From Synechococcus sp. CC9605 (GTDB lineage Bacteria > Cyanobacteriota > Cyanobacteriia > PCC-6307 > Cyanobiaceae): a stretch of 64,000 nucleotides of DNA. The position numbers and the translations under genes were made by a program. The DNA is taken from NCBI RefSeq assembly GCF_000012625.1, contig NC_007516.1:930001-994000 (forward strand), in the 5' to 3' direction. Below are positions 8,537-32,137 of the stretch, in pieces (the first letter of the stretch is position 1; every line of letters begins with the position of its first letter). The notes beneath the pieces are model-generated. The model saw only the letters and a list, made by a program, of their open reading frames with translations. It did not search any database and was not told the DNA's origin.

Positions 8537-9033
8537 GACACCACCCCCTGACGGATGGCTTCCACCACGGGGACCGTGTGCAGCCCGTAAACCCACACCA
8601 GCTTGTCGCCGAGGTACACCTGCGTGATCACAAGCCCCGCCAGCACCACATCAAGGGCCAGAAAGCCCCTGGGCAAGTTCGCCGGATCTTTCTGCCGGGC
8701 GACGTAGCGCCAGCCCGTGAGCAGGGCCAGCACGCCGGCCAGGGACCAACCGATGGTGCTGTGAATGTTGAGGATGTCCCGCGAGGCGCCATAGGGATTG
8801 GCAAGACCGGCCTCCACCTGGCCGAAGATGATCGCCACAAAGATCGCCACGGTGGCGACGATCAGGTTCCAAAAGCTGACTTCAAACAGATTCTTCTTGC
8901 CACTGATCACACCGATGACGTCGAACACCACCGTGATCAGGGCCATGGCGATCACGAAGTGAACGACGATCGGATGGATGACGTCGAGCCAGGGCAGATT
9001 TTTGTCGTTGAGCGGTGGAAGCAGCTCAAGCAT
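8533..9033 (-). CDS. DUF2231 membrane protein A of the oxidase operon
   Basis: 166 aa from the ATG at 9033 (a GTG at 9051 is the alternative). DUF2231-type integral membrane protein with four hydrophobic segments. His residues occur as VIHPIVVHF (about residues 20 and 25), NIHSTIGWS in the third segment and GLHTVPVV near the end, in the same arrangement as the next gene. The two proteins are paralogous in layout and may form a heterodimer. First gene of the probable operon DUF2231-DUF2231-ctaC-ctaD-ctaE-GMC. Function unknown. Confidence 0.8.
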   Translation of the reverse strand: MLELLPPLNDKNLPWLDVIHPIVVHFVIAMALITVVFDVIGVISGKKNLFEVSFWNLIVATVAIFVAIIFGQVEAGLANPYGASRDILNIHSTIGWSLAGVLALLTGWRYVARQKDPANLPRGFLALDVVLAGLVITQVYLGDKLVWVYGLHTVPVVEAIRQGVVS

Positions 9034-9144: not shown

Positions 9145-10230
9145 CTAGGTCTTGGTGCGCCAGAACACCAACGCCTGGGTCATGATCACGATCAACACCA
9201 CCGGCAGTACAAAACAGAGCATCAAAAGCCTGAACTCGTCCGACCAACTGGCGAGGGTTGTTCGGGGAAGGACGTTGTCAACGATGTAGAGGATGTACAA
9301 GCCCAGCAACAGTCCACCTTCGAGTCGGCTGATCCGTCCGCGCGTCCAGAAGATCGGCATGCAGGCCAGGCTGGTGAGCAACATCACAGGTAGGTCGTCC
9401 TGAATCAATTCGGGGCTGACCTCCAGGCCACGACCAGCGGCAGCCAAGGCTCCACCACCCAGCACCAGCAGCAGGTTCAACAGGCAGCTGCCCACCACGT
9501 TGCCAATGGCCAGATCGGTGCGCCCGCGCAGGGCTGCCACCAGGGAGGTGATCAATTCCGGCATTGAGGTTCCGGCGGAAACGATCGTCAGACCGATCAC
9601 CGCCTCACTCACCCCGAGGTAGGTGGCTGCTGCTGTGGCGCCGCTCACCAGCACCCGGGATCCGATGGTGAGGATTCCAATCCCTCCGATCAGCCGCAGG
9701 ATGGCAAGGGTCCAGCCGCCGCTCGCCGCGTCCTCTTCGATCTCGGGTTCAGCGCTGCCGCTGTCGTCTGGTTGTTCGCGGGCGGTGCGGATCTCCCAGA
9801 TGGTGTTGATCACAAGCCCCAACAGCAAGGCCAGGCCCGCCTGCCAGGTGACCCGTCCTGCGGAGGCCATGCCCCAGACCGCCGCCGAGATGGCAATCAT
9901 CAGAGGAACATCGCGCCGCACCAGACGGCTTTCGACGCGCAACGGCAGCACAAGGGCGCTGCTGCCCAGCACCACCATCACGTTGAAGATGTTGCTGCCC
10001 ACCACATTGCTCACGGCGAGGGTGTCAGCCCCCTGCAGCACTGAGTTCAGACTCACGAACAGTTCCGGGGCGCTGGTGCCCAGGGAAACCACCGTGAGGC
10101 CGATCACGAGCTGGGGGATGCCAAAGATCACCGCCATGGCGACGGACCCCTGAACAAACAATTCTCCGCCACCGAACAGCAGCCCGATGCCCAGCAGCAC
10201 TTGGATCGAGGCCTGGAGGAATTCAGGCAT
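9145..10230 (-). CDS. Sodium/calcium exchanger family membrane protein
   Basis: 361 aa with two homologous halves of about five helices each, separated by an acidic cytoplasmic loop (EQPDDSGSAEPEIEED, about residues 155-170). Each half holds the alpha-repeat signature of the CaCA superfamily: GLTVVSLGTSAPELFVSL with NVVGSNIFN in the first, and GLTIVSAGTSMPELITSL with NVVGSCLLN in the second. The acidic residues of the PEL motifs bind cations. Family members exchange Na+ (or H+, K+) for Ca2+. It is divergent from bicA, a Na+-dependent bicarbonate symporter, so maintaining the Na+ gradient is a reasonable role, inferred from position. Confidence 0.9.
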   Translation of the reverse strand: MPEFLQASIQVLLGIGLLFGGGELFVQGSVAMAVIFGIPQLVIGLTVVSLGTSAPELFVSLNSVLQGADTLAVSNVVGSNIFNVMVVLGSSALVLPLRVESRLVRRDVPLMIAISAAVWGMASAGRVTWQAGLALLLGLVINTIWEIRTAREQPDDSGSAEPEIEEDAASGGWTLAILRLIGGIGILTIGSRVLVSGATAAATYLGVSEAVIGLTIVSAGTSMPELITSLVAALRGRTDLAIGNVVGSCLLNLLLVLGGGALAAAGRGLEVSPELIQDDLPVMLLTSLACMPIFWTRGRISRLEGGLLLGLYILYIVDNVLPRTTLASWSDEFRLLMLCFVLPVVLIVIMTQALVFWRTKT

Positions 10231-13284: not shown

Positions 13285-13373
13285 TGGTGGGGGCAGGGGG
13301 ACTTGAACCCCCACAGGCCTTTCGGCCCAAGCGATTTTAAGTCGCGTGCGTCTACCGATTCCGCCATGCCCCC
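13285..13373 (-). tRNA. tRNA-Leu (anticodon UAA)
   Basis: Read on the minus strand the gene begins GGGGGCA, which pairs with TGCCCCC at the 3' end, then the discriminator A and an encoded CCA (13285-13287). The D-arm (TGGCGGAATCGGTAGACGC), the anticodon loop CTTAAAA with anticodon TAA, a long variable arm (TTGGGCCGAAAGGCC) and the T-arm GGGGGTTCAAGTCCCCC are all recognisable. The long variable arm confirms a class II tRNA. Confidence 0.96.
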
Positions 13374-14953: not shown

Positions 14954-15325
14954 TCACTCCTCGTCTTCGTCACTGCCACCAACAGGTGTCAGACGAATTT
15001 GTTTGCGCCCCAGTTTGATTTCAAATTCATCTCCAGGCTTCAGGTCGAGCAGAGCCGTATAAGCCTTGCCGATCAGCAGATTGCCGTTGCCTTGAACGGT
15101 GGCCACGTAGCTGAGTTTGCGGCCTCCTTTGCCCACGCCGCCAACACCACCCATGCCAAGACTCACGCCTTTGGCTTCCAGTAGTGCCTCATAAAAAGCG
15201 GTGAAATTCAAACGCTCGCCACCATCTTTTTTATCGGAGACATAGCCACAGGCACGAACAAGATCAGACTTGCTGACGTCACCTAGGTCTTTGACTTTAT
15301 TGAGAAGGTCGCTCCCAGTGAGCAT
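14954..15325 (-). CDS. Cyanobacterial AbrB-type transcriptional regulator
   Basis: 123 aa. Unlike Bacillus AbrB, the swapped-hairpin DNA-binding domain lies at the C-terminus (about residues 70-115: KLSYVATVQGNGNLLIGKAY, KPGDEFEIKLGRKQIRL). The N-terminal helical part (LLNKVKDLGDVSKSDLVRACGY) is special to cyAbrB proteins. These factors act on carbon/nitrogen balance and CO2-uptake genes in cyanobacteria. It is monocistronic, with its own terminator. The acidic tail ends GSDEDEE. Confidence 0.9.
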   Translation of the reverse strand: MLTGSDLLNKVKDLGDVSKSDLVRACGYVSDKKDGGERLNFTAFYEALLEAKGVSLGMGGVGGVGKGGRKLSYVATVQGNGNLLIGKAYTALLDLKPGDEFEIKLGRKQIRLTPVGGSDEDEE

Positions 15326-15423
15326 CGCTTTCGAGAGAAATCAACCTTCACAACATAGCGTTTGTGCAAGTCGTTATGCCATCATTTTTCTTTGAAAAGT
15401 TCTTCGGTATTTCATCCTTCGCT

Positions 15424-26702: not shown

Positions 26703-26909
26703 ATGCCCATGCCTGATCAGCCGCTGGTGGACTCCCTCGTGCAGCAGGGCTTGGCGCTGGCAGCAACGGCTGGCGGTGAGCTTGAACGCAGCTGTTGGAT
26801 TGTGGTGCATGAGCACCACCATGGGGTGAAACCCACGGAGTACGACATCCGGGAAATCGACGAGGATCTCTATCTGGCTGTGTTGCAGGCGGCTCGTCAG
26901 TCGCAATAA
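26703..26909 (+). CDS. Conserved small protein (68 aa), parent of nearby partial copies
   Basis: 68 codons from the ATG at 26703 (a second ATG lies at 26709). Soluble and acidic: QPLVDSLVQQGLALAATAGG, then a His-rich strand WIVVHEHHHGVK and a C-terminal helix REIDEDLYLAVLQAARQ. The family is not recognised, but the gene seems intact. Its last ~70 nt plus 28 nt of downstream DNA recur at 28330-28426 and, more diverged, at 31369-31443, which marks the borders of the accessory island. Confidence 0.7.
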   Translation: MPMPDQPLVDSLVQQGLALAATAGGELERSCWIVVHEHHHGVKPTEYDIREIDEDLYLAVLQAARQSQ

Positions 26910-26937
26910 GGGTTCTCAGGGAATCTGTTGTTCTCAG
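26841..26937 (+). repeat. Direct repeat copy A (3' end of the 68-aa gene)
   Basis: 97 nt that match copy B (28330-28426) with only a few mismatches and no gaps. It covers the last 23 codons plus 28 nt of 3' flank. Outside these limits the two sequences differ. Confidence 0.9.
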
Positions 26938-27197
26938 TATTTTCCTGTGCCGCAACTGGAAGACAGTGCACGAAGTTGAAACCTGCCCCGCTGTCGCAGC
27001 GTAATTACAGTCATGGGTATTCATTCCCATCGTGGAAGCTAAACCCACGGTGGTGTCAACGTTTTTATAGATTTTGGCTACGCAAATTTTGCGACTTCTC
27101 CAAACAGCTCAACTGGAGAAATCAGATCAGGTCGGTAGCACGAACTGTCTTTTTAATGCGCTTTTTAGATACCGTGGCCGCCCCATTATTGGTGGTG

Positions 27198-27420
27198 TGA
27201 GGGCTCACAGGCCCAACAGCACGTCCTTCTTTGTTACTCGCCAACCTGATCGCTCGGATCTAGACGGAGCCCCTCTTGATGCAGGCTTGGGCTCTTTTTT
27301 TGGCGAACGAAACCACCGGCCAAGCCGAATGATGGTGGTTCCGCGGCCCCAGAGGTGTCGGGCTGAAGCTCCTCTGTCAAAACCTGTCGGAGCAGGGCCT
27401 GAAGAATCAACTGCTATGCG
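27198..27420 (+). repeat. Structured intergenic repeat element, copy 1
   Basis: Begins TGAGGGCTCAC and contains a terminator-like hairpin (GAGCCC...GGGCTC, T-run at 27294-27301). A second hairpin follows in which GAAACCACC pairs with GGTGGTT, and a tail reads GAAGCTCCTCTGTCAAAACC. Copy 2 at 30160-30385 has the same order of parts and similar sequence over most of its length. It looks like a non-coding RNA gene or mobile structured element. Confidence 0.7.
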
Positions 27421-27486
27421 AAGGTCGCATACCAGTACGCATAATTACTGTGCACTCTGTTAGGCCTGAGTCACGTCATGAGAGAC

Positions 27487-27535
27487 GGCAGTCCCGGCAC
27501 CGAACACCGGAACTTTTTTGGCGAATCCACGGCAG
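27487..27535 (+). repeat. Partial copy of the structured repeat
   Basis: A short hairpin (CCGGCACCGAACACCGG) followed by AACTTTTTTGGCGAAT and CCACGG. It keeps only the junction hairpin/T-run/GGCGAA of the larger element. Confidence 0.45.
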
Positions 27536-27554
27536 ACCGTTGAAGTCTTGAGCA

Positions 27555-27665
27555 TGGGTGCGGGGCGATAGGGATACCGCCCCACCCTCTTTTTTAGGTC
27601 AAGCGAAACAACCGGCGTGTCGACCGAGCAATTGATGGTTTCGCTACACCAATGGTCTGGCCGTC
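27555..27665 (+). repeat. Second partial copy of the structured repeat
   Basis: A strong hairpin (GGGGCG...CGCCCC, loop ATAGGGATAC) is followed by CTTTTTTAGG and by AGCGAAACAACCGG, which pairs with the later ATGGTTTCGCT. The order of hairpin, T-run and GCGAAAC/GGTTTCGC stem is the same as in the two long copies, although the first stem differs in sequence. The changed but still paired bases point to selection on structure. Confidence 0.5.
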
Positions 27666-27718
27666 CATGGGGTACTTCCGGCATCACGCCTGCGAGCAAG
27701 CTCGCAACGTATCTGCAA

Positions 27719-27913
27719 CTACTGGAAAGCAGTTTGACCTACATCGCTGAACTGGTAGCTCTCTCTGCGTAGGTCTTCCTCAAGCTTTTGCAGTTTTGCG
27801 GTCAACGCGGCAACTTCAGAGCTGTGACCAATGGACGAAAAGTAGGCAAGCCGATAAGCCTCCCACCGAAGACCGAACTCCAGCCTCTCAATCGGAGTTT
27901 TGGCTGCTCGCAT
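27719..27913 (-). CDS. Small hypothetical protein (64 aa)
   Basis: ATG at 27913 has a Shine-Dalgarno-like GGGAG about 5 nt upstream, which supports it over the longer TTG frame. The protein is helical and charged: TPIERLEFGLRWEAYRLAYF, then VAALTAKLQKLEEDLRRE. No membrane segment and no known motif. One of the few intact-looking genes in the first half of the island. Confidence 0.55.
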   Translation of the reverse strand: MRAAKTPIERLEFGLRWEAYRLAYFSSIGHSSEVAALTAKLQKLEEDLRRESYQFSDVGQTAFQ

Positions 27914-27928
27914 CTCACTCCCTATCAA

Positions 27929-28329
27929 CTATTGAAAAAACTAAAAAGAAGACATCAGTCGATGTAGGGAATGTGTCTGCGAACATTTAGTGATTACCGC
28001 CCGCCATCTTTTCTCGAGAGCAAGACGAGACTTGAGAGACTTCTATGCGAGATGATGGGGGAATCCTTAAGCAGGGAGTCATTGCTATCGCTATTGCCTC
28101 GTCCTGCCCGCTTAACGTCGGTGTTCTCGATAGTTCTGGTTGGTGGACTGACGAAGCTCTCGTTTTGGCCGTTAGGCCTCTTTCGGCGCACGAGCTACAT
28201 CAGCTCACTCTTGGCTCTGAGCGAGAATGGCGTCATCACCAAGGTCATGACCTGAGGCACTGAGGCTTCGCACTCATGCACAATTTATGGTGCTATGTCG
28301 TGAAACCCAGTCAGAGATTGAGGTCTGAC
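27929..28329. other. Region without a supported gene
   Basis: Several frames of 60-95 codons overlap here on both strands and none is clearly protein-like. One plus frame (27971-28255) has a hydrophobic run (SVFSIVLVGGLTKLSF) and might be a decayed membrane protein. The end of the region leads into repeat copy B. Confidence 0.4.
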
Positions 28330-28426
28330 TACGACATCCGGGAAATCGACGAGGATCTCTATCTGGCTGTGTTGCAGTAGGCTCGTCAGTCGCAATAAGG
28401 GTTCTCAGGGAATCTGCTGTTCTCAG
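28275..28426 (+). pseudogene. Truncated copy B of the 68-aa gene
   Basis: The last 97 nt match copy A nearly exactly, but codons GCG become TAG, which creates an in-frame stop (LQ-stop-ARQSQ). The upstream half is only faintly similar (a GTGAAACCCA stretch is kept) and no start is usable. The preceding ATGCACAATTTATGG is shared with copy C, so B and C have a common history apart from A. Confidence 0.75.
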
Positions 28427-28585
28427 CTGGCTGCGGCTCTGCAGTCATGACAGGTGTCTAGACCCGGCCATCTGTTCATTTTCGACCCCCATAGGGGGGA
28501 GTTTGTGGCTTTGCGCTCTCGATGGAGGACCTGACATTGTCTGCGCAAAACTTGCAGAAAAGGTTTGAAAATCCATGCATTGTCC
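28427..28585. other. Short spacer with a hairpin
   Basis: CCCCC-ATA-GGGGG at 28486-28498 lies beyond the stop of the small-gene operon on the minus strand. It is a possible terminator of that operon, although there is no clear T-run. Confidence 0.35.
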
Positions 28586-28747
28586 TCAAGAAATTGTCTT
28601 CTTTCTTGTTAGGAATAGCCAGCCAATAAGGCTTGATATGTAGACAACACCAATGATGAACAGATTCAAAGGCAGGAACAGGCCCCAGATGAAGCACACC
28701 CCCACTGCTATTACTCCTGCCCATCCCAAGCCCTTAGGCCAATCCAT
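28586..28747 (-). CDS. Small membrane protein (53 aa)
   Basis: ATG at 28747 with an AGAGG ribosome-binding sequence before it. Two hydrophobic segments (GWAGVIAVGVCFIWGLFLPL and NLFIIGVVYISSLIGWLFL) and a basic end (TRKKTIS). It starts 2 nt after the stop of the preceding 54-aa gene. Function unknown; the size and form recall single-purpose thylakoid or stress peptides, but no HLIP motif is present. Confidence 0.6.
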   Translation of the reverse strand: MDWPKGLGWAGVIAVGVCFIWGLFLPLNLFIIGVVYISSLIGWLFLTRKKTIS

Positions 28748-28749
28748 GG

Positions 28750-28914
28750 TTACCTCTTCTTCCGGTCGAAGAGCAGCCAAAGTGCAACGCTGGCAGCGAG
28801 TAGAACGATGATGTTTTGGTTGCTCAGGTAGTCAGGGGCATAAATCCTGAATGCACCAATGATTAGGAAGTCTGTAAATAAATACCAGCCGAGAGATTTG
28901 AAGTTGATGGTCAT
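28750..28914 (-). CDS. Small membrane protein (54 aa)
   Basis: Short frame from ATG 28914 to TAA 28750. Two hydrophobic parts (LGWYLFTDFLIIGAF and NIIVLLAASVALWLLF) end in a basic tail DRKKR. The close spacing to genes on both sides (2 nt to the next, 8 nt from the previous) supports expression as an operon. No family recognised. Confidence 0.55.
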   Translation of the reverse strand: MTINFKSLGWYLFTDFLIIGAFRIYAPDYLSNQNIIVLLAASVALWLLFDRKKR

Positions 28915-28922
28915 GCCTGATT

Positions 28923-29108
28923 TCAGGAGTATTCACCATCATTAAACTCGTCAATCAGACATTCAGCCTCAAGGTCACTGGAACAACCAAGTAGATGCTC
29001 GCATCTGATTTTGAGCCATCTAGACACCTGCAGCTGCTGGGATTGCGGGGTCTCATCCATGGTGATGAGCTTGAGATTCCTTCTCCAGTTCTGTTCCCAG
29101 TAGCTCAT
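28923..29108 (-). CDS. Small hypothetical protein (61 aa)
   Basis: Probable first gene of the three-gene micro-operon, ATG at 29108 (ATG at 29060 also possible). Soluble and acidic toward the end: QVSRWLKIRCEHLLGCSSDL, then EAECLIDEFNDGE. Three Cys residues. No known motif. Confidence 0.5.
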   Translation of the reverse strand: MSYWEQNWRRNLKLITMDETPQSQQLQVSRWLKIRCEHLLGCSSDLEAECLIDEFNDGEYS

Positions 29109-29322
29109 GGCAATAAGAGAGGGTTATCGAAAATATCTCTACCGGCGTTGGGGGTCTGTTGTGTAGGCAACAATTGGCTCTCCTGCCAATCTCTAAAGGC
29201 CATTCAGGGAGTCATCAACAGGTGCATAGAGATCAAATGAAGTCCCGTGCAAAACAGTTTTTTGCCAGAGCAGGATCAAAAAATTCGGTTTATCTCACCA
29301 GGGCTTGCATCACTGCCAGTAT

Positions 29323-29691
29323 TCAAACCGTAGAATTGTGCTTCTCAAACTTTCTGCCATGCAAGGATTCCTCGTGGGATGAACTAATAGGAAATAAGCT
29401 GAAAATTTTTTCCAAGACATAAGAACGAAAGAAATCCTTCAGGTCTGAAAAGCTATTGCGATACGGAATGGGGTACAGAAGGGTGCTGATCACAGCAAAA
29501 ATCATCACGTGGAAAAAATTGCCAGCGGGGTAATGACCAAGCTGAAATCCCAGCAGGCGGGCCTCGCTATTGACGCTGAAATCAAGTCCGAAATGATCGT
29601 GGAGTTTGTCGTGAAGCTCTGTACACTCTCCAATTCCTGGAATCCAGTTTCTTAGAAATTGCACATAGGGATCAGGACTTGATTCAGGCAT
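29323..29691 (-). CDS. Hypothetical protein (122 aa)
   Basis: ATG at 29691; a longer TTG frame is not needed. N-terminal half is polar with aromatic and His residues (YVQFLRNWIPGIGECTEL, HDKLHDHFGLDF). One hydrophobic stretch (FFHVMIFAVISTLLYPIP) lies near residue 70, followed by a basic tail. It may be a monotopic membrane protein. It is AT-rich like the rest of the island and is not recognised. Confidence 0.5.
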   Translation of the reverse strand: MPESSPDPYVQFLRNWIPGIGECTELHDKLHDHFGLDFSVNSEARLLGFQLGHYPAGNFFHVMIFAVISTLLYPIPYRNSFSDLKDFFRSYVLEKIFSLFPISSSHEESLHGRKFEKHNSTV

Positions 29692-29842
29692 TACCCCATG
29701 GGAGTTCAATCCATTGAACGGAGCCTGTTAATGCCTTGATGTAGCCGATTCATCCATTTGCTCCGCCGGTGCGCTATTAATCACAAATAAGCTGGATCAT
29801 CACACCCAGCGCCACGTGTAGATGGATCTAGCTACCGGCAGA

Positions 29843-30169
29843 TCAAGGACGCGCAGTATGGAAGCAAGACCCATCCCTTAATGGCACATAACGCTTCGTT
29901 GTCACTGGATAGCAATCACTAGCTGCCATGAAGCTGAAATCCTGCTGATCTGCGGTTTTCAATGCTGTGGGGGAGAAGTCTTCTGACCTCGATCCCCCTC
30001 CAGTCGTGGCGGCCGCTTTCGCTACCCGTCCCATAATCGAATCCTGAGACTCCAACTGACCCTGCATCCAGCTGTCGATCAATTTCGTAATAAGTGGTTG
30101 TTGCTTGCGCCTGTGTTCTTTTGGAGGCATTGGCTGGCGGATGTTGATGGGGCTTTGATGAGGGCTCAC
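29843..30169 (-). CDS. Doubtful hypothetical protein (108 aa)
   Basis: Open frame whose middle looks protein-like (PLITKLIDSWMQGQLESQDS, GRVAKAAATTGG), but whose start lies inside structured repeat copy 2 on the opposite strand. The composition is ordinary and there is no motif. It is kept because nothing else explains these 300 nt; it may be spurious. Confidence 0.3.
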   Translation of the reverse strand: MSPHQSPINIRQPMPPKEHRRKQQPLITKLIDSWMQGQLESQDSIMGRVAKAAATTGGGSRSEDFSPTALKTADQQDFSFMAASDCYPVTTKRYVPLRDGSCFHTARP

Positions 30170-30385
30170 TGACCCGTCAGCACGTCATTGTTTTTCGCTT
30201 GCCAAACTGACCTCGAAAGAAAGGAGCCCTTGCTTGAGAGAAAAGGGGCTCTTTTTTTGGGCGAACGAAACCCCACCGGCAAGTGGGCCGAGCGATTGTG
30301 GTTCCGCTGCTCCGGATCAACTGCAAATCAACTGGAGCTTTTCTGTCGTAACCCTGCTTCGACAGGGCGTGACGCATCACCTGAC
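30160..30385 (+). repeat. Structured intergenic repeat element, copy 2
   Basis: Same parts as copy 1 in the same order: TGAGGGCTCAC, a terminator-like hairpin (GAGCCC...GGGGCTC then seven T), GGGCGAACGAAACC, the stem partner TGTGGTTCCGC, and GGAGCTTTTCTGTCGTAACC. Spacing is kept while many loop bases differ, as expected for a structured RNA. Confidence 0.7.
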
Positions 30386-30483
30386 ACCTATTGAGAGAGG
30401 GATGTCCTGAATCGATGAAACAGAGATGCACAGCTGCTGCACGCATTTACCTTCCGGTTTCAATCTGATACTCATCTTCGGCA

Positions 30484-30689
30484 TGTACTTCATCGAACGC
30501 CGAGGGGCCGACCGTCAATGGATCAGGGAACTGAACTTCAAAAATGAATTCAAGGCAGTGATCGGTGCTCGACGCAAGGCAATTTCAACCTTGGTTACCT
30601 ATCGGGTCGTCCATGCGCTCTGGCCTAACCAAGTGGTCTGCTACGTGGATGGACCCGAGCTGGCCAAAGAGGTGGAAACAAAGGGGTGA
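30484..30689 (+). CDS. Small hypothetical protein (67-68 aa)
   Basis: ATG at 30484 is preferred over the longer frame from 30426. The sequence looks like a real soluble protein: YFIERRGADRQWIRELNF, EFKAVIGARRKAISTLVTY, then VVCYVDGPELAKEV. It is basic and not recognised. It follows structured repeat copy 2 by about 100 nt. Confidence 0.5.
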
Positions 30690-31100
30690 CCGCTCTGCAA
30701 AGCACACCCACCTAGAACCGAACTCATCTCGATGAGCTCAGGCTGAGGTGATGGGGCAAATTGATCCGATTTGCAGGATCGGCACACCGAGCTGAGTGAG
30801 GTGAGGCCTTCATCCGAACGACTGGTGACGCTTTGCCTCTCTTCTTTCTCTCACCACCGCAGGTTTCAACGGGCAAGCCAATGCACGAAACGGTATGTGT
30901 TGTCCATCAAGAATGAGTTCGCCGAGTGATTGAGCGTGGTGAAGGTGAATCTCCATCAGATCTCCTACCAACATCCTTGGTGTAACCAGACCTCATTGCA
31001 GGTCCAGTGTCATCTGCTGCTATTTCGCCTTTGCATCGCGACTTGCCTCATCGACAGCAGAGAACTGAGTGTTTCAACCCAACCCACCAAGCAGGTCTAA
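30690..31100. other. Region without a recognisable gene
   Basis: About 400 nt with only very short frames. No clear terminator, tRNA or repeat was found in it. Confidence 0.5.
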
Positions 31101-31238
31101 ATGGATACGTCACCTCCCGGAGTTCTTGAGCCATCACAGGTGTACGACACCCCAACCTCCGTGGAATTCTTGATGGCTGCTTTGGTTCTGTCCTCGACCG
31201 CCTCAGTTATTGCAACTGTCTTTCGCGGCAGTTACTGA
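31101..31238 (+). CDS. Very small membrane protein (45 aa)
   Basis: ATG at 31101 with AGGT about 6 nt upstream, stop TGA at 31236. A polar N-terminus (TSPPGVLEPSQVYDTPTS) leads into one membrane helix (FLMAALVLSSTASVIATVF) and a short RGSY tail. The regular amphipathic layout argues for a real gene. No known family. Confidence 0.5.
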   Translation: MDTSPPGVLEPSQVYDTPTSVEFLMAALVLSSTASVIATVFRGSY

Positions 31239-31311
31239 TCACGGTGTGAAGGCCCCCTTTTTGTTGCATGTCTGGAGTCTGTGATGGATGGGCTTAACCA
31301 TGGCTTCTCTG

Positions 31312-31443
31312 TATGCACAATTTATGGCGCCATCCTTAAAAACCATGTCAGGAACTGGGATGAATCGACGACATCCGGGAAATCGACGAGGATCTTGATC
31401 TGTTGTGTTGCAGGCGGCCAAGCAGGCCCAGTCCGCAGCTTGA
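31312..31443 (+). pseudogene. Diverged copy C of the 68-aa gene's 3' end
   Basis: The stretch from 31369 (CGACATCCGGGAAATCGACG) matches copy A well. A one-base loss in the Asp-Leu region then shifts the frame; in the corrected frame it ends VLQAAKQAQSAA with TGA at 31441-31443, a variant of the AARQSQ ending of copy A. It shares ATGCACAATTTATGG with copy B. It abuts the stop of the next gene on the minus strand and could be the ancestral 3' end at the right edge of the island. Confidence 0.65.
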
Positions 31444-31737
31444 TCAGCCCTTGAGCAGCTCCCGCAGAAGTGCGCGGTGAATGTTTTCGGCTTCGATGCT
31501 CTCCCGCATTTCTTTGGGGAGGCGGGCCTCCAGGATGTCCTGTTTTTTCATCTCTGTGGCATAGCGGCTGCTGAACGCGCTGAAGCGAATGAGATAGGGC
31601 GTCGCCGTCTCTGGGTTGAAGGCAATCACCTCCAGGGCATGTTTGAAGTGGAGGTAGGACACGGTCCACTCCACCAGCTCGTCAAAACTCAGCAGGCCAA
31701 GCGGATTGTCAGGGAGTGTCATCGCTGCATCGCCCAT
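31444..31737 (-). CDS. Conserved hypothetical protein (97 aa), last gene of cytochrome-Nif11 operon
   Basis: ATG at 31737, 4 nt after the stop of the gene before it. Helical soluble protein: LLSFDELVEWTVSYLHFKHAL, YLIRFSAFSSRYATEM and EMRESIEAENIHRALLREL. Not recognised. The tight spacing of four genes from 32783 to 31444 indicates one transcript with cytochrome c6 and Nif11. Confidence 0.7.
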   Translation of the reverse strand: MGDAAMTLPDNPLGLLSFDELVEWTVSYLHFKHALEVIAFNPETATPYLIRFSAFSSRYATEMKKQDILEARLPKEMRESIEAENIHRALLRELLKG

Positions 31738-31741
31738 GGCT

Positions 31742-32137
31742 TCAACCAAAACCCTCGGCCTTGGCCTGGGCCGTCAGGTCCTTCAACCGGCCGTTGAGCA
31801 GAACATCGCGTTCACGGTCTGCCCCCACATGGGGGGCGATCTCCACCCCAGCGCTCCGCATGGCCTGCATCGCTACTGCTTCCTGGGCTGAGCCCGTTTC
31901 ACTGCCGAGGTACCGCTCCACGGCGGCAGCCCCTGGGGCGTCCGCGGCGAAGTACACCGTTCCAGGGCCTCGCCGCTCGATGGTTTGCTGCCGCTGCCGC
32001 CGGCGCTGCTGCACGCTTGCCCAGAGCCGTCCTTGATTGGCGGTCATGAAGGAGTTCAGATCGGCGGCGTCGGTGTCTTCAGCCAGGGCCATGCTGGTGC
32101 CGTCGATGAAATCACTGAGCAGGGTGACAACGGCCAT
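31742..32137 (-). CDS. Conserved hypothetical protein (131 aa) coupled to Nif11 gene
   Basis: The ATG at 32137 overlaps the stop of the Nif11 gene (TGATG), which decides the start. N-terminal acidic helix (VVTLLSDFIDGTSMALAEDT), a very basic middle (QQRRRQRQQTIERRG) and an Ala-rich second half (AAAVERYLGSETGSAQEAVA, VLLNGRLKDLTAQAKAEG). Soluble; no known motif. Confidence 0.68.
   Translation of the reverse strand: MAVVTLLSDFIDGTSMALAEDTDAADLNSFMTANQGRLWASVQQRRRQRQQTIERRGPGTVYFAADAPGAAAVERYLGSETGSAQEAVAMQAMRSAGVEIAPHVGADRERDVLLNGRLKDLTAQAKAEGFG

Follow-up and report, generated by a model that had tools for sequence, protein, structure and literature searches.

The 3' end of a small conserved gene, g68, most probably serves as the attachment site (attB) of an integrase-bearing phage lineage of the Cyanobiaceae and of related elements. 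We put this at roughly nine in ten, together with the reading that the island behind g68 in Synechococcus sp. CC9605 consists of two successive integrase-less insertions. The interpretation is drawn from sequence comparisons: the gene end is repeated around the island, the site is empty in relatives, the same core is paired with an integrase gene on viral contigs, the island borders resemble the viral arm, and integrases are found at g68 in other genomes. The analysed stretch of 64,000 nucleotides, called the window, is part of a complete genome of 2,510,659 bp, and all plain coordinates refer to it.

Copies of the gene end and the elements between them

The g68 gene (26703-26909) is located downstream of a divergent clpB gene. 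It is present in 348 of 400 Cyanobiaceae genomes (242 of the 251 high-quality ones) and absent from all 23 genomes of other families of the class. The features of the region are as follows.

26703-26909 (+): g68, conserved 68-aa gene, whose 3' end is the putative attachment site (sequence comparison across genomes)
26842-26893 (+): core of copy A (attL side), CGACATCCGGG...GCAGGCGGC (repeat alignment)
26894-28330 (+): element 1, about 1.4 kb, without integrase (alignment, profile search)
26894-26937 (+): left end of element 1, which gives g68 a new C-terminus and stop; common to element 2 and the island L041
27198-27430 (+): 230-nt module of element 1 with a terminator-like hairpin, also in other islands
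28276-28330 (+): right end of element 1, like the left arm of a phage attP (ATGCAC...AGTCAGAGATTG; arm matrix)
28331-28382 (+): core of copy B, junction of the two elements, with TAG stop (repeat alignment)
28383-31367 (+): element 2, about 3.0 kb, without integrase (alignment, profile search)
28586-28780, 28750-28914, 28923-29108: small ORFs of element 2
29323-29709 (-), 30426-30689 (+): further small ORFs of element 2
30156-30388 (+): 230-nt module of element 2
31313-31367 (+): right end of element 2, like the left arm of a phage attP (ATGCACAATTTATGGCGC...TGTCAGGAACTGGGATG; arm matrix)
31368-31443 (+): core of copy C (attR side) and displaced native 3' end of g68, with a 1-nt frameshift
31444-31749 (-): conserved neighbour of 101 aa, directly abutting g68 in relatives with an empty site

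The last 17 codons of g68 (copy A) are repeated in the same direction at 28331 (copy B) and 31368 (copy C), the repeats being 52-100 bp long. Copy B (28327-28426) reproduces 100 bp of copy A (26838-26937) with 96% identity (E 5e-42), including 44 bp past the core, and copies A (26842-26893) and C (31368-31418) are 92% identical over 52 bp (E 7e-15). Copy B is interrupted by an in-frame TAG (CAG TAG). Copy C has lost one nucleotide in CTGGCTGTG and retains the native tail ...AAKQAQSAA*, whereas the present reading frame of g68 ends with ...LQAARQSQ*, a tail contributed by the inserted element. Copies B and C are also alike on their left sides for about 50 bp (ATGCACAATTTATGG..., starting at 28276 and 31313; 76% over 90 nt). 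Thus, the segments A-B (1.4 kb) and B-C (3.0 kb) each have a similar left and a similar right end, and because A and B match beyond the core and B and C match on the left, the region most likely represents two units placed head to tail.

Repeats of this quality are not expected by chance, because scanning up to 10 kb downstream of g68 at 80 other loci gave at most 29 of 48 matching bases, RCC307 being the lone outlier (44 of 48). In RCC307 (L175) a near-complete second g68 is located 5.1 kb downstream of the first (10001-10198 and 15257-15418), and the two are separated by RTX/peptidase-like repeat genes. This second copy is longer and probably the result of a segmental duplication, and RCC307 was therefore excluded from the att insertions.

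Between copies A and C the GC content drops to 0.44-0.56 compared to about 0.60 outside, and all ORFs are short. Searches of these ORFs against Pfam, PHROGs, and NCBIfam all stayed below the cut-offs (best PHROG E 0.045), a sensitive profile search did not find any integrase remnant, and Rfam has no family for the region or for the 230-nt module. The island is thus bounded by attL and attR and contains neither an integrase nor phage structural genes, as an intact prophage would. Its end sequences in exact form have no match in IMG/VR, and a loose search of the 400 genomes with the right-end 19-mer gave mostly chance matches. A reading made from the sequence alone had already described the three copies, the stop in B, the frameshift in C, the AT-rich and gene-poor DNA without visible integrase, and the return of core genes after copy C (the next one ends at 31444), and all of this holds in the alignments and profile searches. 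Its proposal of an old or decayed element is still the likeliest reading, with the refinement that there are two tandem elements, A-B and B-C, whose common left and right ends are related to phage attP arms.

The module of about 230 nt consists of GATGAGGGCTCACTGACCC, a terminator-like hairpin with a T run, and a GAACGAAACCACCGGC..GGTGGTTCC hairpin. At least six copies are distributed over several islands of the CC9605 genome, and further copies were found in five other genomes of the genus (copies outside the window: L098-L103, L310, L311, L315, and L316). Covariation is weak (covariation term -0.11) and we therefore do not claim an RNA family; the module could represent a small RNA or else a mobile repeat. 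Part of element 2 (30156-31037) is 95% identical over 890 bp to an island at C1:1,286,860 (L118 5860-6746). This island adjoins a dapF-like gene and has a tyrosine-recombinase-like ORF (L118 12376-12993) 6 kb beyond the similar segment. Another locus (L119, genome C1 ~1,577,650-1,585,950) contains three direct copies of a sequence resembling a tRNA 3' end, TTCGAATCCTGTCTCCCCGATGC (649-695, 2335-2381, and 8901-8947), which delimit island segments with two copies of the same module.

Empty sites, occupied sites and integrases in other genomes

In 11 genomes of the same genus g68 is followed without insert by the gene ending at 31444, with a gap of -12 to 61 bp that is exactly 0 bp in six of them. 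Gaps containing the repeats measure 4,534 bp in CC9605, 2,794 bp in its sister strain G003, 3,158 bp in G009, and 1,285 bp in G014. A 944-bp insert in G022 (L047) does not have repeats and was not counted among the att insertions. At the empty sites g68 ends with ...AAKQAQSAA* or near variants, which is the sequence found after copy C, while the tail of copy A reads ...AARQSQ*. The relatives therefore look as the sequence-only reading had anticipated, with g68 abutting the gene ending at 31444 and an ending like copy C. The locus thus has the marks of site-specific integration at a gene 3' end: the insert lies between direct repeats that correspond to the gene end, relatives have the site empty and without a scar, and the native end is found beyond the insert.

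The site turns over faster than the surrounding genome, as judged from the divergence of the G003 island and from the filled site of G009 next to the empty site of its sister G005. In G003 and CC9605 hemE and glgB together are 97.6% identical, but the islands can be aligned only in patches of about 78% identity, and the island contents have therefore been exchanged recently.

Integrases are present directly at g68 in other hosts. In G281 only 168 bp separate g68 from an intact integrase, and the core occurs a second time 31 kb away. Within the cargo of this element are proteins weakly similar to replication initiators, a Sak-type annealing protein, and a MerR/excisionase-like protein. Phage structural genes were not recognised among the proteins scanned, and the phrog_212 head protein is absent from the G281 genome. 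A 381-aa cargo protein (L301 626-1768) resembles the thiol-activated cytolysin family (PF01289, E 6e-9), and elsewhere in the genome, not within the g68 element, there is a second DNA polymerase A gene, which is short (C1:750634-751686). In G336 a broken integrase lies directly 3' of g68. The island of G009 (L052 754-1074) has kept the N-terminal part of an integrase directly after attL, and it directly illustrates how an integrase-bearing insert decays toward an integrase-less island. Further integrases, from the loci L203, L209, and L213, cluster with the G281 integrase (95/86 support).

The gene end on viral contigs

The 68-aa protein matches 13 viral contigs in IMG/VR, in each case with its C-terminal 16-30 residues only. 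Wherever these contigs continue, the match is followed after 154-247 bp by the start of an ORF of about 333-359 aa. This ORF matches a PHROG integrase (E 2e-10) and weakly PF00589 and Arm-DNA-bind_2, and R198, K220, LRH (R279), GH (H305), and Y314 are invariant across 12 integrase sequences. The viral integrase A1 has the complete catalytic R-K-(H/Y)xxR-H-Y set with a tyrosine instead of a histidine as first box-II residue. By these matches and motifs the ORF is a tyrosine recombinase. To avoid circularity, IMG/VR was searched a second time with a tyrosine-integrase alignment and not with the gene end, and 55 of the 56 loci returned were scanned. On every one of the 55 contigs the g68 core precedes the integrase gene by 194-218 bp, with 30-45 of 45 bases matching, compared to a maximum of 26 of 45 in 955 control windows on the same contigs. 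Free elements thus exist in which an attP with this core and an integrase gene are neighbours. Several of these contigs are about 60-64 kb long and encode a major head protein, with endolysin and tail fibre on examples. The related integrases found are located on phage contigs and on island-type elements. Among the cultured phages of INPHARED the integrase does not have a close relative, the nearest and sole match being PSS2 with 28% identity, and the 68-aa protein does not match any phage there. The hosts of the uncultured contigs would be Cyanobiaceae, judged only from the attachment site and the related integrases in Cyanobiaceae genomes, and the phages with the g68 core would have a temperate life style.

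To the left of the core, the viral sequences contain two ATGCAC repeats with a spacing of 11 bp and, near the core, a GTGACTGGG block. A weight matrix was built from 40 non-redundant viral left flanks only. With this matrix five island right ends, namely the two in the window and those of L041, L059, and L052, score 6.7, 3.9, -5.2, -11.2, and -16.5, while native g68 flanks score -39 to -47. The background has a mean of -52.8 (sd 13.3, n=75,271 positions) and a 99.9th percentile of -11.2. Because the island ends score at the extreme of this background, the right borders of the islands and the arm of the viral attP have a common origin. None of these five islands holds a complete integrase. Taken with the attP beside the viral integrases and the integrases beside g68 in other hosts, the earlier suggestion that the gene's 3' end acts as an attachment site is well supported.

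In the proposed mechanism, a tyrosine integrase would recombine a core of about 45-50 bp, comprising the last 15-17 conserved codons, that is common to attP and attB. On insertion the host's gene end would be replaced by the phage copy and moved to the far side, and the reading frame of the host protein would therefore stay open. In CC9605 two such insertions would have arrived one after the other, both of which lost or never had an integrase. Their small AT-rich cargo would now be bordered by attL (A) and attR (C), with an internal att (B) in between. Concerning the integrase, loss from the window elements is our preferred assumption over satellites that never encoded one.

It could nevertheless be possible, although we consider it unlikely, that the window elements are small satellites without integrase that are still moved in trans by the integrases of co-infecting phages. 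Four elements (the two in the window, L041, and L059) have the left end, the right end, and the 230-nt module in common but differ in cargo. Arm and core sequences are preserved although an integrase is missing, the insertion in tandem involves left ends that are 96% identical, and the site turns over quickly between sister strains. The stop in copy B and the frameshift in copy C, however, suggest age, a free or circular form was not seen (the exact ends do not occur in IMG/VR), and integrase decay does happen at this site, as L052 illustrates. Extended to marine Synechococcus in general, the idea would imply a group of 1.3-3 kb integrase-less satellites with phage-matched arms and the conserved 230-nt module, mobilised by an uncultured temperate cyanophage lineage whose integrases are dedicated to the g68 end. 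In this extended form it is slightly more doubtful.

A tandem segmental duplication or homologous recombination that produced the two extra gene ends without any site-specific recombinase might be suspected from RCC307, whose longer second g68 with RTX-like genes indeed looks duplicated. It is highly improbable for the other genomes, given that the repeat ends on the same core in four of them, that the empty sites are scarless, that the island right ends resemble viral arms, and that all 55 viral contigs have the same core beside an integrase, which contradicts duplication. Equally hard to reconcile with the data is that the viral gene end was captured from a host, by transduction or by mis-binning of host DNA, and is not an attP. 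The core does encode the C-terminus of the host protein in frame, but only the last 16-30 codons are present, at a constant distance from the integrase gene and with conserved non-coding arm repeats on their left, and the contigs carry head and lysis genes.

Lysogeny in picocyanobacteria and known integration systems

For marine Synechococcus and Prochlorococcus, stable lysogeny has long been a puzzle (PMC8776855, PMC6157547). Integrase-bearing cyanophages are known, but intact prophages are reported to be missing from isolates and the isolation of lysogens has failed (PMC8776855, PMC6157547). The g68 site offers a putative but well-defined attB, dozens of uncultured phage contigs that encode a dedicated integrase family, an intact integrated element of 31 kb with that integrase, and decayed remnants, which makes the question of lysogeny testable by PCR and read mapping. 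In addition, the g68 core could provide a host assignment for uncultured phages and would explain the origin of one class of small genomic islands.

Elements integrating at a protein gene's 3' end are already known in kind, and so are tandem integrase-less elements bounded by att sites. Phage 21 and e14 integrate at icd and SGI1 at mnmE/trmE, in each case at the 3' end of a protein gene whose reading frame is restored. Like the g68 elements they use a tyrosine integrase, have the core within the last codons, and provide a substitute C-terminus while the host end is displaced to attR. The g68 elements differ in their target gene and in their picocyanobacterial hosts, and their integrase family has a single distant cultured-phage match in INPHARED. 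Cis-mobilizable elements (CIMEs) are also flanked by att sites and lack an integrase, and tandem accretion of integrative elements is known. The window elements resemble them as an att-bounded pair that shares the middle att, but the putative helper is a phage-type integrase and not a conjugative element. Tycheposons and the tRNA-linked islands of Prochlorococcus and Synechococcus are tyrosine-recombinase islands with small cargo. The g68 islands have in common with tycheposons the tyrosine recombinases, the streamlined marine cyanobacterial hosts, and the small cargo, but target a protein gene and not a tRNA gene; the window contains a single tRNA, at 13285.

Flores-Uribe 2019 reportedly described a lineage of uncultured cyanophages that encodes an integrase, NblA, and a split DNA polymerase and has the potential for lysogeny. 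One of the viral contigs (L299) has the same kind of attP, an integrase, a DNA_pol_A domain, and an NblA-like ORF whose score of 22.1 bits is below the cut-off, and because of this combination it may belong to that lineage. In the open papers that we searched, we did not find any description of the g68 site, its integrase family, or a link between uncultured cyanophages and island remnants in marine Synechococcus. The siphoviruses PSS2 (PMC2784084) and S-LBS1 (PMC6157547) encode an integrase as the viral contigs do. Their proposed att sites, a 53-bp sequence related to tRNA-Met in PSS2 (PMC2784084) and a 14-bp motif inside phage genes in S-LBS1 (PMC6157547), are different from the 3' end of g68.
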